Virus record (IMG/VR): IMGVR_UViG_3300006752_000075
Coordinates: 1 to 37,498 of that record
Reading direction: 5' to 3' (one strand)
Origin: a virus
Length of the DNA: 37,498 nucleotides
Of the stretch, positions 2,973-11,069 are shown one piece after another. Numbering within the stretch: position 1 is the stretch's first letter; every line of letters begins with the position of its first letter. The position numbers were made by a program, and so were the translations under genes. The notes under the pieces were generated by a model. The model had not been told where the DNA came from. It searched no databases and saw only the letters and a list, made by a program, of their open reading frames with translations.

Positions 2973-3001
2973 TATATAAGCACTCATTACCTATATGTCA
3001 A
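2973..3001 (-). promoter_or_regulatory. Sigma70-type promoter (TTGACA-17-TATATA)
   Basis: On the minus strand TTGACA (3001-2996) is followed after exactly 17 bases by TATATA (2978-2973). It overlaps the 3' end of the methyltransferase gene and would drive 2937 and onward. The spacer contains ATAGG and ATGAGTGC, elements shared with the promoters at 6568-6596 and 16275-16303. Confidence 0.75.
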
Positions 3002-4400
3002 ACAATTTTAACTGTGGTTTTACATTTTTTATTCTTGCTTTGGCGATTTCGTAGTATTCTTCTTCTTTTTCTATGCCAATGAACCTAAAATCTTCTTCTC
3101 TTGATGCCATGCCAGTTGATCCACTACCCATGAATGGATCGAGCACCAGTCCTCCTTTTGGCGTTACCAAGCGAACAAGATATTTCATTAACTCCACTGG
3201 CTTCACTGTTGGGTGATTGTTCGCAGCAACGGACTGGTTACGCTGATGTGGCAGCTCCACTTGTTTGTTTCTTCCATCATAGCTGTATTGCTTGGCTTCT
3301 CTACGCCCTAGCCCGAAATTACGCTCATCTTTTGATGTCTTTGCACAGTAGAAATACCGAGAAGCGTTGCCATGATCTCCATAAGCTGGCATAAAATCTC
3401 CATCATCATCTTTGTTATCTGACCATATTCCTTTGTGTGTTCGTTGTCTGCTGACCTCCGTGCTGCTCGTTGTTGGAAAGATTTCTTGTATTTGTTCGCT
3501 TCCGTCGTGCATCACATTACTGGGCCATCTGCCTCCAGTAGTATCAATGTCTGATGCTTCTTTACGCTTGGCGTTAGATGTCTGACCGAATGATAGCTTG
3601 TCTACACCAATTGCAGCCTTACTTTGTTCGCCTTGATCACGGAAGTCTGGCATAGTTTCTGGGTGTTTGACCTCGCCCTCTATCCTACAGCCATCAATGT
3701 TTATTGCACCAGTTCCGTGTTTCATCACATTGTCTGCTACCGACTTCTCCGACAAAGGCTTTCTTGCCAACACCATTGGTTCATGTGCAGGTTTCAACGC
3801 AGTACCCCAACCTTCCCATTCTGAGCTACCTTTAGTTTCCATCTCTGGATTTTTTCTCTCGCCACCATCTCTACCTAAAGAATTATGAAACCCTTTTCCG
3901 CCGGGAATCCCATTTTTGTATTGAGGGTGTTTAAATCCAACTTGCACTCTTTTATTACCCGTTTTCTTATCAACTTCTTTGCCTATATTGTGGCTTTTAG
4001 GAAACCCACTGCCATACAACCAAATACATTGATCTCTGATTTCAAACCCAGCATCTTCTATGGCAACTGCCATTCTGTGGTATGTTCGTGATCCACTGAA
4101 CGCAATTAGGTGACCTCCAGGCTTTAACAATTCATAACATTTACGCCATGTGTTTGCCTGGAAAGCTATGTCGCCACCATCCCACTCTTTACCCATGAAA
4201 CCTTTTGATGCTCTAGCATAAGCACCATCTGTACCAAATTGTGCTGGTGCTGAATCTTCTTTACCGAACCTTTTAACTATTGATGTAAGGTGATACGGCG
4301 GATCTGTGACAACGCTATCAACCGAACATTTATCTATTGTCTCCATGACTTCTAAACAGTCGCCATTATAAACTGTGCTACCCTCTATTATTACTTCCAT
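2991..4400 (-). CDS. DNA methyltransferase, beta-class (adenine-N6 or cytosine-N4 type)
   Basis: A 469-residue amino-methyltransferase. The catalytic motif TDPPYHL lies near residues 32-38 (DPPY 33-36), and the S-adenosylmethionine-binding motif LDPFMGSGSTG comes at the C-terminus (about 420-430); this order defines the beta class. HPTVKPVELMKYL precedes the SAM motif, as usual. DPPY favours adenine-N6, but N4-cytosine enzymes can carry related motifs. The long region between the two motifs (about 120-380) is the target-recognition part. It modifies phage or host DNA, probably to evade restriction; no cognate endonuclease is adjacent, so it looks like an orphan enzyme. The gene start overlaps the end of the 4378-4704 gene by 23 bases. 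A promoter for the downstream genes lies in its last codons. Confidence 0.9.
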   Translation of the reverse strand: MEVIIEGSTVYNGDCLEVMETIDKCSVDSVVTDPPYHLTSIVKRFGKEDSAPAQFGTDGAYARASKGFMGKEWDGGDIAFQANTWRKCYELLKPGGHLIAFSGSRTYHRMAVAIEDAGFEIRDQCIWLYGSGFPKSHNIGKEVDKKTGNKRVQVGFKHPQYKNGIPGGKGFHNSLGRDGGERKNPEMETKGSSEWEGWGTALKPAHEPMVLARKPLSEKSVADNVMKHGTGAINIDGCRIEGEVKHPETMPDFRDQGEQSKAAIGVDKLSFGQTSNAKRKEASDIDTTGGRWPSNVMHDGSEQIQEIFPTTSSTEVSRQRTHKGIWSDNKDDDGDFMPAYGDHGNASRYFYCAKTSKDERNFGLGRREAKQYSYDGRNKQVELPHQRNQSVAANNHPTVKPVELMKYLVRLVTPKGGLVLDPFMGSGSTGMASREEDFRFIGIEKEEEYYEIAKARIKNVKPQLKLFDI

Positions 4401-6596: not shown

Positions 6597-6892
6597 CCGA
6601 AATCATCTAAAACACTCCTAGAAAATAAATGTGTAGAGTGTTTGTGTACTTTACCATATTCAACTTCTTGTAAAGCACGAGGATCATCTTTGAACGCATC
6701 TTTTGCGTGTTCCTCTGGGTCATATTTTGATATTACTTTTTCTTTTGCTTGTTTTTGTCTTAAAATTTTAATATTTTTTGATTTGCAAGCTTTGCAAACA
6801 GTTAAATATTTTACTCTATCATAAGAATCTTTTGTTTTTGCAAACAAGATTATTGGCTTACTTTCATTGCATTGTTTACAAGTTTTTATCAT
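6593..6892 (-). CDS. Small zinc-ribbon protein (HNH-like N-terminal knuckle, no HNH motif)
   Basis: A 99-residue basic protein. CKQCNESKPIILFAK followed by VCKACKSKN gives two CxxC pairs, the zinc knuckle seen at the N-terminus of many phage HNH and endonuclease VII-like proteins. No HNH or other catalytic motif follows; the rest is a charged helical tail ending in RSVLDDFG. It is therefore more likely a zinc-binding accessory protein than a nuclease. The gene overlaps the end of the cytosine methyltransferase gene by 17 bases, with a GAGGCAG ribosome-binding site inside it. It may work with the modification enzymes. Confidence 0.6.
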   Translation of the reverse strand: MIKTCKQCNESKPIILFAKTKDSYDRVKYLTVCKACKSKNIKILRQKQAKEKVISKYDPEEHAKDAFKDDPRALQEVEYGKVHKHSTHLFSRSVLDDFG

Positions 6893-8093
6893 TTTCTGCC
6901 TCTTTTATAGCGTAAAATATTCTAGCTACTACCTGTGGCACGATACTATTACCTAAACATCTAAGTCGGTGTACCCTGTTGGATACCCCATTAGCCACTC
7001 TACCCACACTGGGTTCAGCGTCCCAGAGGATCGGTCTTTCTCTGAAGGCTGGATTTCTTTCTTTGGATAATCCCACTCCACCATTCTTGGTGGTCTTAGT
7101 GTGCAACCCAACATCTCCTGTGCTTGTTGTTCGCTCATCTCCCCCGCTTCGACTTTCTTTCGGAAGATCATCGTCTGACCCATTGATGCGTGTCCGTACC
7201 CCTTGGTTGTTGGCGTCGGCCACATTATCTCTCTCTCTGCTACAAATGTCCCCAATGTGTGTGCTCTTGTTCCGTTCTGCACTGATGGTGGCACTGTGTA
7301 TCCGTCCTTCCAATCCCTCGCTCTCGGTGTTGGATACATTTTCACACTGTCTGCTAGGTTCAGACTGTGAGATGTCTGCCCGTCCTTGCTCAAACGTCTG
7401 TTGTTCGCTGTCAATTTTGCTTCTGGGTGTTCTATCTCTTGTGTTGTCGGTGTTGGCCACAAGGTCGAAGATGTCTGTTTGTACAAACTCATTGTCTGTT
7501 CGTCCACTTGCTCCCTCAAGTTTGCTGGTTTTGTCCTGCCCTTGCGGTGACCCTCCATCAGCTTGACTGTTCCCTCTTCTGAACGAGGTGGCAGATGATC
7601 CATTGTGTTCGGTGTAGCCCACAACCCAGCATCGCATTCGTCTATGTTTGGCATCGACGGCTGCAGCTGGAATAAGATATGGGATGGCTTTGTATCCGAT
7701 ACTTTCCAAGTCAGAGAGACTTCTTCGGAGACCCATTGGCATTGTAACAAAGCCTGACACATTTTCGCCAATGACCCATCTAGGCCGTATGTCTTCAATA
7801 ATCCTAACCATTTCGTGCCAGAGATCTCTGTCATCTTCGCTGCCTTTTTGAGCTCCTGCAACTGACCAGGGTTGGCATGGGAATCCTCCAACAACGATGT
7901 CTGCATCTTTGTAATCTTTTCCATTAAAACTCCTTATATCATTATATATTGGCACATCTTTCCAGTGTTTACGCAAGACTTTTTGACAGTATTCATCTCT
8001 TTCCACAAAGGCTACTGTCTCAAAGCCACCTACTATTTGTTCGGCGGCATAACTAAATCCTCCAACGCCGCTAAATAAATCTACTATTTTCAT
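6876..8093 (-). CDS. DNA cytosine-C5 methyltransferase (Dcm family)
   Basis: A 405-residue C5-cytosine DNA methyltransferase. Motif I is DLFSGVGGF (residues 5-13), motif IV FPCQPWS holds the catalytic Cys73, motif VI is ENV (110-112), motif VIII is KHRRMRCWVV (149-158), and the C-terminal RVANGVSNRV and LGNSIVPQVV make motifs IX-X. It methylates cytosine in a sequence-specific way. I start it at the ATG at 8093, which overlaps the upstream stop as ATGA; the longer frame runs into that gene. The region between motifs VIII and IX (about 160-355) is polar, low in hydrophobics, and does not look like a compact target-recognition domain. Exactly there, and across the core, a second long frame (6953-7924) runs through the same DNA. 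Confidence 0.9.
   Translation of the reverse strand: MKIVDLFSGVGGFSYAAEQIVGGFETVAFVERDEYCQKVLRKHWKDVPIYNDIRSFNGKDYKDADIVVGGFPCQPWSVAGAQKGSEDDRDLWHEMVRIIEDIRPRWVIGENVSGFVTMPMGLRRSLSDLESIGYKAIPYLIPAAAVDAKHRRMRCWVVGYTEHNGSSATSFRRGNSQADGGSPQGQDKTSKLEGASGRTDNEFVQTDIFDLVANTDNTRDRTPRSKIDSEQQTFEQGRADISQSEPSRQCENVSNTESEGLEGRIHSATISAERNKSTHIGDICSRERDNVADANNQGVRTRINGSDDDLPKESRSGGDERTTSTGDVGLHTKTTKNGGVGLSKERNPAFRERPILWDAEPSVGRVANGVSNRVHRLRCLGNSIVPQVVARIFYAIKEAENDKNL
6953..7924 (-). CDS. Embedded frame: WPTP-repeat phage protein overlapping the Dcm gene
   Basis: A 323-codon open frame starting at an ATG, shifted by +1 relative to the cytosine methyltransferase and lying wholly inside it, over Dcm residues about 57-380. 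The translation has the marks of a recurring phage protein family, as I recall it: ISGTKWLGLL, SLTWKVSDTK then LFQLQPSMPNIDE, repeated [WY]xTP motifs (LWATPNT, LWPTPTT, MYPTPRARDWKDG, MWPTPTT), and a terminal SGTLNPVWVEWLMGYPTGYT. The WPTPTT codons are the same bases that read VANTDN and VADANN in Dcm. No clear ribosome-binding site is visible. It may be a true overprinted gene or a by-product of Dcm sequence constraint; the intact 323-codon frame and its family-like motifs favour the first. Function unknown. Confidence 0.55.
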   Translation of the reverse strand: MEKITKMQTSLLEDSHANPGQLQELKKAAKMTEISGTKWLGLLKTYGLDGSLAKMCQALLQCQWVSEEVSLTWKVSDTKPSHILFQLQPSMPNIDECDAGLWATPNTMDHLPPRSEEGTVKLMEGHRKGRTKPANLREQVDEQTMSLYKQTSSTLWPTPTTQEIEHPEAKLTANNRRLSKDGQTSHSLNLADSVKMYPTPRARDWKDGYTVPPSVQNGTRAHTLGTFVAEREIMWPTPTTKGYGHASMGQTMIFRKKVEAGEMSEQQAQEMLGCTLRPPRMVEWDYPKKEIQPSEKDRSSGTLNPVWVEWLMGYPTGYTDLDV

Positions 8094-8905
8094 CCAGTAC
8101 ACTCCCCACCATCTGTTTGACAAAGGAAAGCTTCATCATTGAAAATCCAGTCTTGTTGTGCGTTAACAAACTTAGAAAAGTTTTTCATGCTTCTGTTACG
8201 CTCAAACCTTCTACCAAGTCTTTCTTCTGCATCAATCCACCATTGTGCTAGTTCTGGGTGATCTCTGACCATTGAAGCTAATTGTGATTCTGACTTTAAA
8301 AAACACAGATCACAGTTACCCTTAATTGTTTTGCCACGAACAACTGGTAAATCTAATTTAAATGATTGTTTTTGCCAAAATCTATCAACATCAAATATGC
8401 TATGATTGGCTTCAACCATAGGGTAATGTGGATAAAAACCATTTTGAAAACCATCTTTGCATCTATGTTTTTCATCTGACCTAATACCCATGATGTTATG
8501 CCACTTCTTCCAACCAAGACTTCTAAGGTATTTACTAATAGTATCTCGTTTAAGACTACCAGTACAAAATCTTGCTAATGGATTAGGTAACATCTGATGC
8601 TTATTAATTAGCTTATCGAATGGCTCACCCTTTTTACTTGATGTATCATAGTCAACTATTTTGAATATATGTTTATTTTCTTCGTTGAGATCATATTCTA
8701 GCCAGACGATCTCCAGGCCCCAGTTGAGCGAACAATCATCAATAAACTTAAGTGTTTGCGGCATTTCTCTACCAGTGTTCGCAAAACAAACAACAGCATT
8801 GCCTGGCAAACCATCATTATGATCCATGATTTGCCTCAACATAAATGCACTTGTTCTACCACCACTAAAGCTGATTACACAGTTATTGTCTGGAAGTTTA
8901 TACAT
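8090..8905 (-). CDS. PAPS-reductase/ATP-pyrophosphatase-like protein
   Basis: A 271-residue member of the phosphoadenosine phosphosulfate reductase-like (adenine nucleotide alpha-hydrolase) group. SFSGGRTSAFML supplies the PP-loop (SGGRTS, residues 14-19), FANTGREMPQTLKF follows, and RFCTGSLKR (C114) plus GNCDLCFLKS (C198, C201) are conserved Cys sites, possibly for an Fe-S cluster. Phage relatives are widespread; some related proteins, such as DndC, act in DNA phosphorothioation, but no Dnd partners are visible here. Start at the ATG at 8905, after GAGGGA and overlapping the upstream stop by 8 bases; its stop overlaps the Dcm start as ATGA. The tight coupling to Dcm points to a role in modification or sulfur/nucleotide metabolism, which is inferred. 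Confidence 0.75.
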   Translation of the reverse strand: MYKLPDNNCVISFSGGRTSAFMLRQIMDHNDGLPGNAVVCFANTGREMPQTLKFIDDCSLNWGLEIVWLEYDLNEENKHIFKIVDYDTSSKKGEPFDKLINKHQMLPNPLARFCTGSLKRDTISKYLRSLGWKKWHNIMGIRSDEKHRCKDGFQNGFYPHYPMVEANHSIFDVDRFWQKQSFKLDLPVVRGKTIKGNCDLCFLKSESQLASMVRDHPELAQWWIDAEERLGRRFERNRSMKNFSKFVNAQQDWIFNDEAFLCQTDGGECTG

Positions 8906-11069
8906 TATCCCTCGCAGTTGTAGCCTCATACTCACCACGACTCATATCGCCATCTATGGTGCCAAGCCACTTCCTACCACCACTTGCACTAAATGAATAT
9001 TTAGCAAGTCTACCCTCTTGTATGAGTTCTCTTACAATTCCATCTATCATTCTTTGTGTGCAATTATTTAATACGTTTGGTGCATCTGTATCGGCAGACA
9101 TACGTTGTAGTATTGCATCTGCTCCTGACTGTTGTGTCATGGCTCTGCCCTCACGCTCACAATCAGAAATCCAACTAAACAATGCGTTCTTTTTAATCTC
9201 TTTGTTACTTCCACTATGTAATCTTGATATGTCATCACTTCTATCTAAGAGTAAACCACTAAATTCATCTCTAATAAAGTGCCTTATATTTCTGTTTGCA
9301 GGACCATTTGATTTAACCACTGCACCATCAAAACATTTGTTTCTTTGATAATCTATACCTAAATCTTGGCAACGTCTTCTGCCAGTAGCTTCATCTATCT
9401 GCCATAGTGCAAACGCACAACGAACACCATCAACCAATGCTGACGTACCTCTAATCATATTCCTTGCTTGTTCAGGCGAGCTTACCACTGCATCTTCTTT
9501 AACCTTTGTCATATGATGACACATAATGACTGCCGCACCAGTTTCTGTAGCTATCTGTGCTAGTAATCCAGTCAAAGCTGCACCTGCCGCTGGATCAGAG
9601 TTTACATCTGCATGAACAAAAGATGCCAAAGGATCAAACACAATTAGTTTTAAATCTTTCATTTGCAGTATTTGTTCGTACAACTTGTCAAATTCTACAC
9701 TGGTTTTATAGCCATCATGTGTTTCTTGTAGTATAGGAAAAACACCACCAACATTAGGCAAACTCACGATTCGCAACTCATGTTCATAACTTGACCTATT
9801 GTTATCGTAGTCAAGTCTTTCAATTCTTCTGTGCATTTCTGATTCATCATCTTCTGCCGTAAAGATAATAGAGTTACCAAACTCACTTATATGACCACCA
9901 AACGCTTCTGACATAGGTTGACCACTAGATACTTTCATAGCTAAGTCTAGTGTCATCATACCTTTACCACTATCTCCTGCAGCAGAAAATATAATTGGCA
10001 CTGCTAATGGTAGTGTGTTCGCTATTAAAAACTTCTGTTGTGGTGCATCTCCAACAAATCTGTTTATCAATAAACTATCATCAAGAAGGTTTATGTTCTT
10101 CTTAACTTGCTTAATATTTGCATTAAGAAATTCGTTTATATTGAATTGTTCGGCTACTGCATCTACAACATCCCATCTCTCTGGCTTACCTCTTGGTGGT
10201 GTCAATGTTGTTACCGACTTAACTCCAGCATTTAAAGATAACTCCTGGACTAAATCTGCTACTTTGCGACCTGCATTATCATTGTCTGGCCATATGACCA
10301 GTTCTTTGTCATGTAATGGTGAGAAGTCAAATAAGTTTGCAGACTTTCTTGATAACATTCCTGCACCACCCATAGTGCAAGTCGCAGTATAACCAAGCTC
10401 ATTAAGTGCATCTGCACATTTCTCGCCCTCTACCCATATAATCTTATCTGATGCCACAATGTTCGGTATATTATAAAGTGGTCGTACATCAGGCATCTTT
10501 GGATAATTACTACCACCAGTAAATTGTCTAAACTCTTTCTTGGGCTTTCCATGACCATCTAATATTGGATTACCCTCGTTATCTTTTGCGTTGTATCTAC
10601 GAACAAGACATAACAGTTCTCCATCTGCATTTAGGTACTTATGCTCACTATCAAATGGTGTGTTAATGTTTATCTGTGGTGTGTTTGGCTTTATAATTGA
10701 GCTTATTGTTTCAATCTCAACTGGATTGTTACTATCAAGATAATCTGAAAATAACTCTTTGACCTCTGTTAATTTCATATTCCTACCCTCCATCAATATC
10801 TTAACAATGCCACCTACACCATCAGCTCCATTAAAATCTTGCCCTTTCATAAAATATGGGGATCTTGGATTAATGTCTATTTTTAAGGATTTGCCTGCTT
10901 CTCCACCTAACGAGCCAATGGTAAACTGATCACCTCTGACCACACCCTGTGGATAAGTATCCTTTAACATATTAATTTGCACATGAGATGGCACTTTATC
11001 GCTAATCAACTCAACGAGTTCTTTAGCATCCATTCCCCTTTTGTTATTGCCAAACCTAACAATGTTCAT
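8898..11069 (-). CDS. Primase-helicase (TOPRIM plus RepA-like ATPase)
   Basis: A 723-residue replication protein. An N-terminal segment with SPYFMKGQDFNG looks like the domain preceding TOPRIM in phage primases. The TOPRIM part has WVEGEKCADAL (about 213-222) and WPDNDNAGRK (260-269), with the acidic residues expected for metal binding. A RepA-like RecA-fold ATPase follows: Walker A SAAGDSGKGM (362-371), Walker B LIVFDPLASF (475-484) and a conserved CHHMTK (517-522). The C-terminal domain may bind DNA. It should prime and unwind DNA at the phage fork. I chose the ATG at 11069 because AGGAGG lies seven bases before it, although the frame is open further upstream. No DNA polymerase gene is seen nearby. 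Confidence 0.85.
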   Translation of the reverse strand: MNIVRFGNNKRGMDAKELVELISDKVPSHVQINMLKDTYPQGVVRGDQFTIGSLGGEAGKSLKIDINPRSPYFMKGQDFNGADGVGGIVKILMEGRNMKLTEVKELFSDYLDSNNPVEIETISSIIKPNTPQININTPFDSEHKYLNADGELLCLVRRYNAKDNEGNPILDGHGKPKKEFRQFTGGSNYPKMPDVRPLYNIPNIVASDKIIWVEGEKCADALNELGYTATCTMGGAGMLSRKSANLFDFSPLHDKELVIWPDNDNAGRKVADLVQELSLNAGVKSVTTLTPPRGKPERWDVVDAVAEQFNINEFLNANIKQVKKNINLLDDSLLINRFVGDAPQQKFLIANTLPLAVPIIFSAAGDSGKGMMTLDLAMKVSSGQPMSEAFGGHISEFGNSIIFTAEDDESEMHRRIERLDYDNNRSSYEHELRIVSLPNVGGVFPILQETHDGYKTSVEFDKLYEQILQMKDLKLIVFDPLASFVHADVNSDPAAGAALTGLLAQIATETGAAVIMCHHMTKVKEDAVVSSPEQARNMIRGTSALVDGVRCAFALWQIDEATGRRRCQDLGIDYQRNKCFDGAVVKSNGPANRNIRHFIRDEFSGLLLDRSDDISRLHSGSNKEIKKNALFSWISDCEREGRAMTQQSGADAILQRMSADTDAPNVLNNCTQRMIDGIVRELIQEGRLAKYSFSASGGRKWLGTIDGDMSRGEYEATTARDNV

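Follow-up and report, generated by a model that had tools for sequence, protein, structure and literature searches.

Split cytosine methyltransferases and the locus

The multispecific methyltransferases (MTases) of SP-beta-group phages carry tandem, exchangeable TRDs of ~40 aa between motifs VIII and IX. In M.EcoHK31I (YGGCCR), the small polypeptide is said to be encoded within the large gene in another frame, as reportedly described by Lee, Kam and Shaw in 1995. The published sequence of this enzyme is X82231 (PMC6174562); it is an m5C MTase whose motif IX lies on the separate small polypeptide, while the large subunit holds motifs I-VIII and X and was also assigned the predicted TRD (PMC3404938). 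M.AquI (CYCGRG), which likewise has two subunits, is split after motif VIII, with the distal half of the variable region and motif IX on the small subunit (PMC3404938). Two adjoining DNA-cytosine methyltransferase genes, gp62 and gp63, have been reported in a set of 48 P. larvae phage genomes (PMC6070908).

The window analysed here, a stretch of 37,498 nucleotides that makes up IMG/VR virus record IMGVR_UViG_3300006752_000075, carries on its minus strand an ATG-started frame of 323 aa (beta) that is nested completely within a cytosine methyltransferase gene (alpha) (Table 1). The initial annotation had placed a 323-codon +1 frame inside a Dcm gene at this position; its coordinates were borne out, and all of the motifs quoted from its translation were present. 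Beta is read in +1 relative to alpha, with beta codon positions 1, 2 and 3 corresponding to alpha positions 2, 3 and 1. Since position 2 of beta is position 3 of alpha, every silent third-position change in alpha alters beta. The PDB matches to alpha, covering residues 1-162, were M.HhaI and M.HaeIII.

Table 1. Features of the alpha/beta locus (positions in the window)
Feature	Position	Strand	Remarks
alpha, cytosine-C5 DNA methyltransferase, predicted catalytic subunit, 405 aa	6876..8093	-	Pfam PF00145 7.6e-47; TIGR00675 2.4e-41; alignment
alpha start	ATG 8093	-	TTG further upstream at 8123 possible
alpha motifs I-VIII, residues 1-157	7623..8093	-	PDB matches; position-specific rates
alpha residues 158-357, low-complexity linker	7023..7622	-	beta dictates sequence; stop-free
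alpha C-terminus with motif X (EPSVGRVANGVSNRVHRLRCLGNSIVPQV)	6876..7022	-	alignment; alpha-frame constraint resumes
beta, +1-frame gene, 323 aa, PHROG 1008 family, putative small MTase subunit	6953..7924	-	
AAGGAG Shine-Dalgarno, 5 nt 5' of beta ATG	7930..7935	-	kept in the window's clade
beta N-terminal region, residues 1-100, TSG...LTWK...LLFQLxPSMP	7625..7924	-	overlaps alpha motifs IV-VIII
beta module 1, WATPNTMDHLPPRS...NLREQVDEQTM	7460..7621	-	common to 88/192 betas
beta module 2, WPTPTTQEIEHPEA...SLNLADSVK	7337..7459	-	
beta module 3, YPTPRARDWKDGYTVPPSV...	7223..7336	-	
beta module 4, WPTPTTKGYGHASMGQ...	7019..7222	-	
beta motif IX, LNPVWVEWLMGYPTGYT	6968..7018	-	near-invariant; beta-IX matrix finds canonical motif IX

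A PAPS-reductase-like gene (window 8090-8938) overlaps the start of alpha, and a PAPS reductase also adjoins the alpha/beta pair of phage C72C1 (L002). Elsewhere in the window (2991-4400) lies an N6/N4 DNA methylase (PF01555) in which the 220-position profile spans 428 residues, so this gene, too, has a long insertion in its middle; the ORF list shows no long frame that overlaps it.

Based on alignment, alpha holds motifs I-VIII, including IV (PCQ) and VI (ENV), and motif X, without motif IX; the PF00145 match together with motifs I, IV, VI, VIII and X identifies it as a C-5 cytosine DNA methyltransferase. The C-terminal end of beta is motif IX-like (LNPVWVEWLMGYP), and its final LNPxWVEWLMG[YF]P was near-invariant across 89 sequences. 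When a matrix made from 206 beta ends was run over canonical single-chain MTases, the best window coincided with canonical motif IX in 7 of the 8 with a recognisable IX (in E. coli Dcm, LTPRECARLMGFEA); in SPR it ranked second. An earlier weighting of the matrix had placed canonical IX first in 4/4 MTases then scored. The canonical enzymes SPR, E. coli Dcm, IPP52 and that of a Klebsiella phage carry motif IX in frame, and a +1 ORF bearing this motif was found in none of the four. Of the loci sampled through alpha, 71 had a complete alpha. Each of these carried a beta in +1, recognised by pattern in 64 and by eye in 7, and in none did the alpha frame contain the canonical IX expected of a single-chain enzyme. 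Sampling through beta yielded 164 loci that fit the pattern, with no beta lacking an alpha where the flank sufficed.

Beta was matched by PHROG 1008 (‘DNA methyltransferase’) at E 4.3e-29, residues 2-321 aligning to positions 33-281 of the 329-position profile. Scores were 103 bits for the window's beta, 250 for Shelly gp56 and 344 for Tophat gp82, and the family spans both layouts, internal beta and beta as a neighbouring ORF. Pfam, NCBIfam and PDB sequence searches did not recognise beta, and an AF2 model of beta alone (pLDDT 64, pTM 0.30) gave no convincing fold match, with best Z values up to 3.3. The presence of motif IX in beta, its absence from alpha and the existence of relatives in which IX runs on into X suggest that beta is the C-terminal half of the enzyme. 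The phage protein family that had initially been regarded as a group of stand-alone hypothetical proteins therefore seems not to be unrelated to Dcm, as its members provide motif IX of the MTase and probably the recognition modules too.

As in M.EcoHK31I, to which the pair is likened through the published description of that enzyme's motif division, the large chain has motifs I-VIII and X and, judged by sequence, IX resides on a separate polypeptide. The two differ in that the TRD of M.EcoHK31I was predicted in the large subunit, whereas the variable region of the window is constrained in the beta frame and built as a module array; moreover, M.EcoHK31I is part of a restriction-modification system and the window's MTase is phage-borne. 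Our gammaproteobacterial and E. coli searches did not reach M.EcoHK31I itself, their matches being E. coli prophage pairs. In M.AquI motif X is on the small subunit, unlike the window, where X is in alpha and the overlap of the two genes is almost complete. Tandem, exchangeable units of ~40 aa before motif IX are shared with the SP-beta-group MTases, but there the units lie in the same chain and frame, and SPR has its IX in frame and lacks a long +1 ORF. Lastly, beta is by sequence a member of PHROG 1008, yet this is the name of a protein family in which neither the overlap nor the division of motifs is stated.

Coding and selection in the two frames

A stop-free run of 326 codons was obtained in 0 of 20,000 synonymous-codon permutations of alpha, the longest being 251; permuted genes contained a mean of 18.7 stops in the +1 frame. 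Against a profile made from distant alternate-frame proteins, the real beta frame scored 272 bits and the shuffles a mean of 60 (maximum 120). The part of beta that lies over alpha motifs IV-VIII, tested alone, scored 112.7 bits versus 57 +/- 9 (maximum 88, 2000 shuffles). Across 207 non-redundant loci the median number of expected stops was 5.1, and the beta frame was uninterrupted in every complete relative.

Substitution patterns were compared in 68 locus pairs, with each locus entered once and the alignment based on beta. Through the middle of the overlap (alpha residues ~160-375), beta was the constrained frame in 68/68 pairs: changes that alter alpha and are silent in beta occurred at 0.193 per site versus 0.008 for the reverse, a ~20x difference, and the N/S rate ratio of beta was about 0.056. 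An alignment based on alpha gave the same result. Many of the loci are related, so the locus counts given here do not represent independent events. On either side of the overlap, 5' and 3' of it, close relatives showed the usual third-position pattern of alpha; over alpha residues ~160-375 the third position of beta took over as the site that varied most. Alpha was the more constrained frame over its residues 1-157 (motifs I-VIII), and the constrained frame switches twice, from alpha to beta after motif VIII and back to alpha before motif X. The N-terminal region of beta was nonetheless conserved beyond what alpha forces. Beta is thus a real gene under strong selection, and both frames are selected.

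With beta held fixed, about 6 stops would be expected in the alpha frame through the middle, yet it is open, which argues that alpha is read through to its motif X. As a protein, the middle of alpha is almost free, while its frame is kept stop-free. This agrees with the suggestion in the initial annotation that the odd middle of Dcm is shaped by the other frame. Its proposal of dual coding was likewise supported by codon shuffles, substitution patterns and internal ribosome-binding sites, and stops in relatives or a lack of extra constraint, which it had named as counter-evidence, gave way to the opposite result: an open frame under strong constraint.

While the Shine-Dalgarno (SD) site of the window is retained within its clade, other lineages use different SD/ATG pairs, located about 44-74 nt 5' of the PCQ codon. 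An in-frame internal ATG preceded by an SD match of 4 nt or longer was present in 88/135 loci (65%), versus 11.5 (8.5%) expected from codon shuffles. This conservation and enrichment point to separate initiation of beta rather than frameshifting.

Probable recognition modules, proposed enzyme and rival readings

Between its N-terminal region, for which AF2 predicted helices and a hairpin, and motif IX, beta carries an array of 1-8 units that start with [W/Y/F]xTP and have a median length of 40 aa (690 units from 192 betas, of which two showed none by pattern). The window's beta has four, of 38-68 aa. A given family of units turns up at various positions and beside various neighbours, the units are shuffled between relatives, and insertions extend both frames together. 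Based on their position and size, which resemble those in multispecific phage MTases, the modules are probably target-recognition units. A beta insert at L031:2501-3907 showed a weak HTH-like signal (KTTIEHWFRKD...SIEDWEKIK).

Taken at the level of sequence, the locus very probably encodes a two-subunit phage m5C MTase of the M.EcoHK31I kind, with both chains produced from overlapping frames. Alpha, in frame 0, would use motifs I-VIII and X to build the domain for AdoMet binding and catalysis, and its middle would be a mere linker, kept open so that the ribosome gets to motif X. Beta would be translated in +1 from a Shine-Dalgarno/ATG of its own that lies about 170 nt inside alpha, contributing motif IX and the variable region absent from alpha, with the four modules most likely reading the targets. 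The two chains may then come together as a single enzyme whose methylation of phage DNA would presumably protect that DNA from host restriction.

The reading in which beta is a passive by-product, with the openness of +1 owed only to the amino-acid and codon use of alpha, draws on the fact that the conserved motifs of alpha do force part of beta, so that shuffled alphas still reach ~60 bits; but no shuffle attained the open length, the real score exceeded that of every shuffle, and it is beta, not alpha, that is conserved in the middle. Tested by codon shuffles and substitution patterns, this explanation was rejected and has practically no probability left. We regard as very improbable that the ribosome changes frame twice, once past motif VIII and once ahead of X, to make a single long MTase, the start of beta being incidental. 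The constrained frame does change at exactly those two places, but protein-level conservation extends over the first 100 residues of beta, which lie 5' of the first switch, internal SD/ATG pairs show strong enrichment, and the middle of alpha stays open although it would go unread.

A further reading takes beta for a functional protein that is overprinted on Dcm and serves a separate purpose (e.g. anti-restriction or regulation) instead of being an MTase subunit. This fits beta's own start, N-terminal region and modules, one of them with the weak HTH-like signal, as well as its lack of a recognisable fold. Nevertheless, the C-terminus of beta resembles the very motif missing from alpha, and members of the family in L102, L136 and actinophages run on into motif X, which makes this reading unlikely, if somewhat less so than a double change of frame.

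Distribution, variant layouts and significance

Hundreds of contigs, viral as well as bacterial, show the same layout. Searches with beta gave at least 487 confirmed cases among the 600 candidates listed from viral contigs, and 225 of 358 candidates were confirmed in genomes of many phyla. Named phage cases include those of P. larvae, Lactobacillus, Vibrio, Synechococcus and marine Autographiviridae; further cases were found on a P. polymyxa plasmid and in E. coli prophages in which alpha alone is annotated. By motif IV/VI sequences, alpha falls into at least three distinguishable clades. In actinophages such as BellusTerra (gp80/gp79) and Tophat (gp81/gp82), alpha stops after motif VIII, as it does in L102 and L136, and beta is the neighbouring ORF; in these betas, as in those of L102 and L136, the modules, IX and X are in one frame. 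Motifs IX and X were thus found together on the small subunit, as in M.AquI, in L102, L136, BellusTerra gp79 and Tophat gp82, and not in the window. The proposal that the family as a whole is the alternate frame of phage Dcm genes accordingly holds where beta is internal and fails for actinophages, where it is an adjacent ORF with motif X.

Several individual loci deserve mention. One E. coli PT62 prophage has two alpha/beta pairs (L308:440-1426 and 3398-4135) with only the alphas annotated, and these belong to different clades (GSCPCQPFS and GFPCQDIS types). In E. coli PCP07014 (L309:3374-4135) alpha is annotated as a pseudogene owing to an internal stop, and beta is broken at the same place. 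Five beta matches of equal length and score (L159-L163) lie on one Roseovarius chromosome (OX638333.1), perhaps from a multi-copy prophage. A Trichormus plasmid MTase without recognisable IX or X (L315:1592-2353) has a 179-codon open +1 run and is a possible variant. Two loci considered as natural alpha-beta fusions, in a Pelosinus MAG (L190:2455-3711) and Paenibacillus macquariensis (L192:2661-3593), were rejected when reading of all frames revealed in each a single frame slip, located between modules and disrupting alpha and beta alike; they are natural mutants or sequence errors. An AF2 model of the L190 fusion had a good N-terminal domain and a small domain with pLDDT of about 50, and L190 was a poor choice for modelling.

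The initial annotation had taken the overlap to be undescribed. The principle is in fact known from M.EcoHK31I, PHROG 1008 and phage Shelly, whose gp56 is annotated as ‘g55 internal gene’; its breadth was not found described. Within the collection of papers searched, we found no earlier account of the alpha/beta overlap in phages or of the general phenomenon, and likewise no description of the double switch of the constrained frame or of double-coded module arrays.

On balance we favour, with some reserve, the view that these loci represent a large and hitherto overlooked group of m5C MTases from phages and bacteria, in which the specificity subunit is encoded in the +1 frame of the catalytic subunit and carries tandem, shuffled recognition modules. 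If true, many annotated ‘Dcm’ genes that are taken to be complete encode only half of the enzyme. Many such annotations in phages and prophages would be wrong: the ORF that bears the name has neither motif IX nor a conserved variable region, and its partner, the probable determinant of the target, would be absent from gene lists, as in E. coli PT62 and PCP07014, where alpha alone is annotated. Each swapped cassette would be double-coded, a recognition module in one frame and an open linker in the other, and one recombination step could change specificity. This would account for the strange low-complexity middle of such Dcm enzymes and offer a testable way to predict and swap methylation specificity. 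It would also provide a long, widespread same-strand overlap with selection measured in both frames, a natural experiment in the sharing of DNA by two proteins, with constraint in one frame, then the other, then back.
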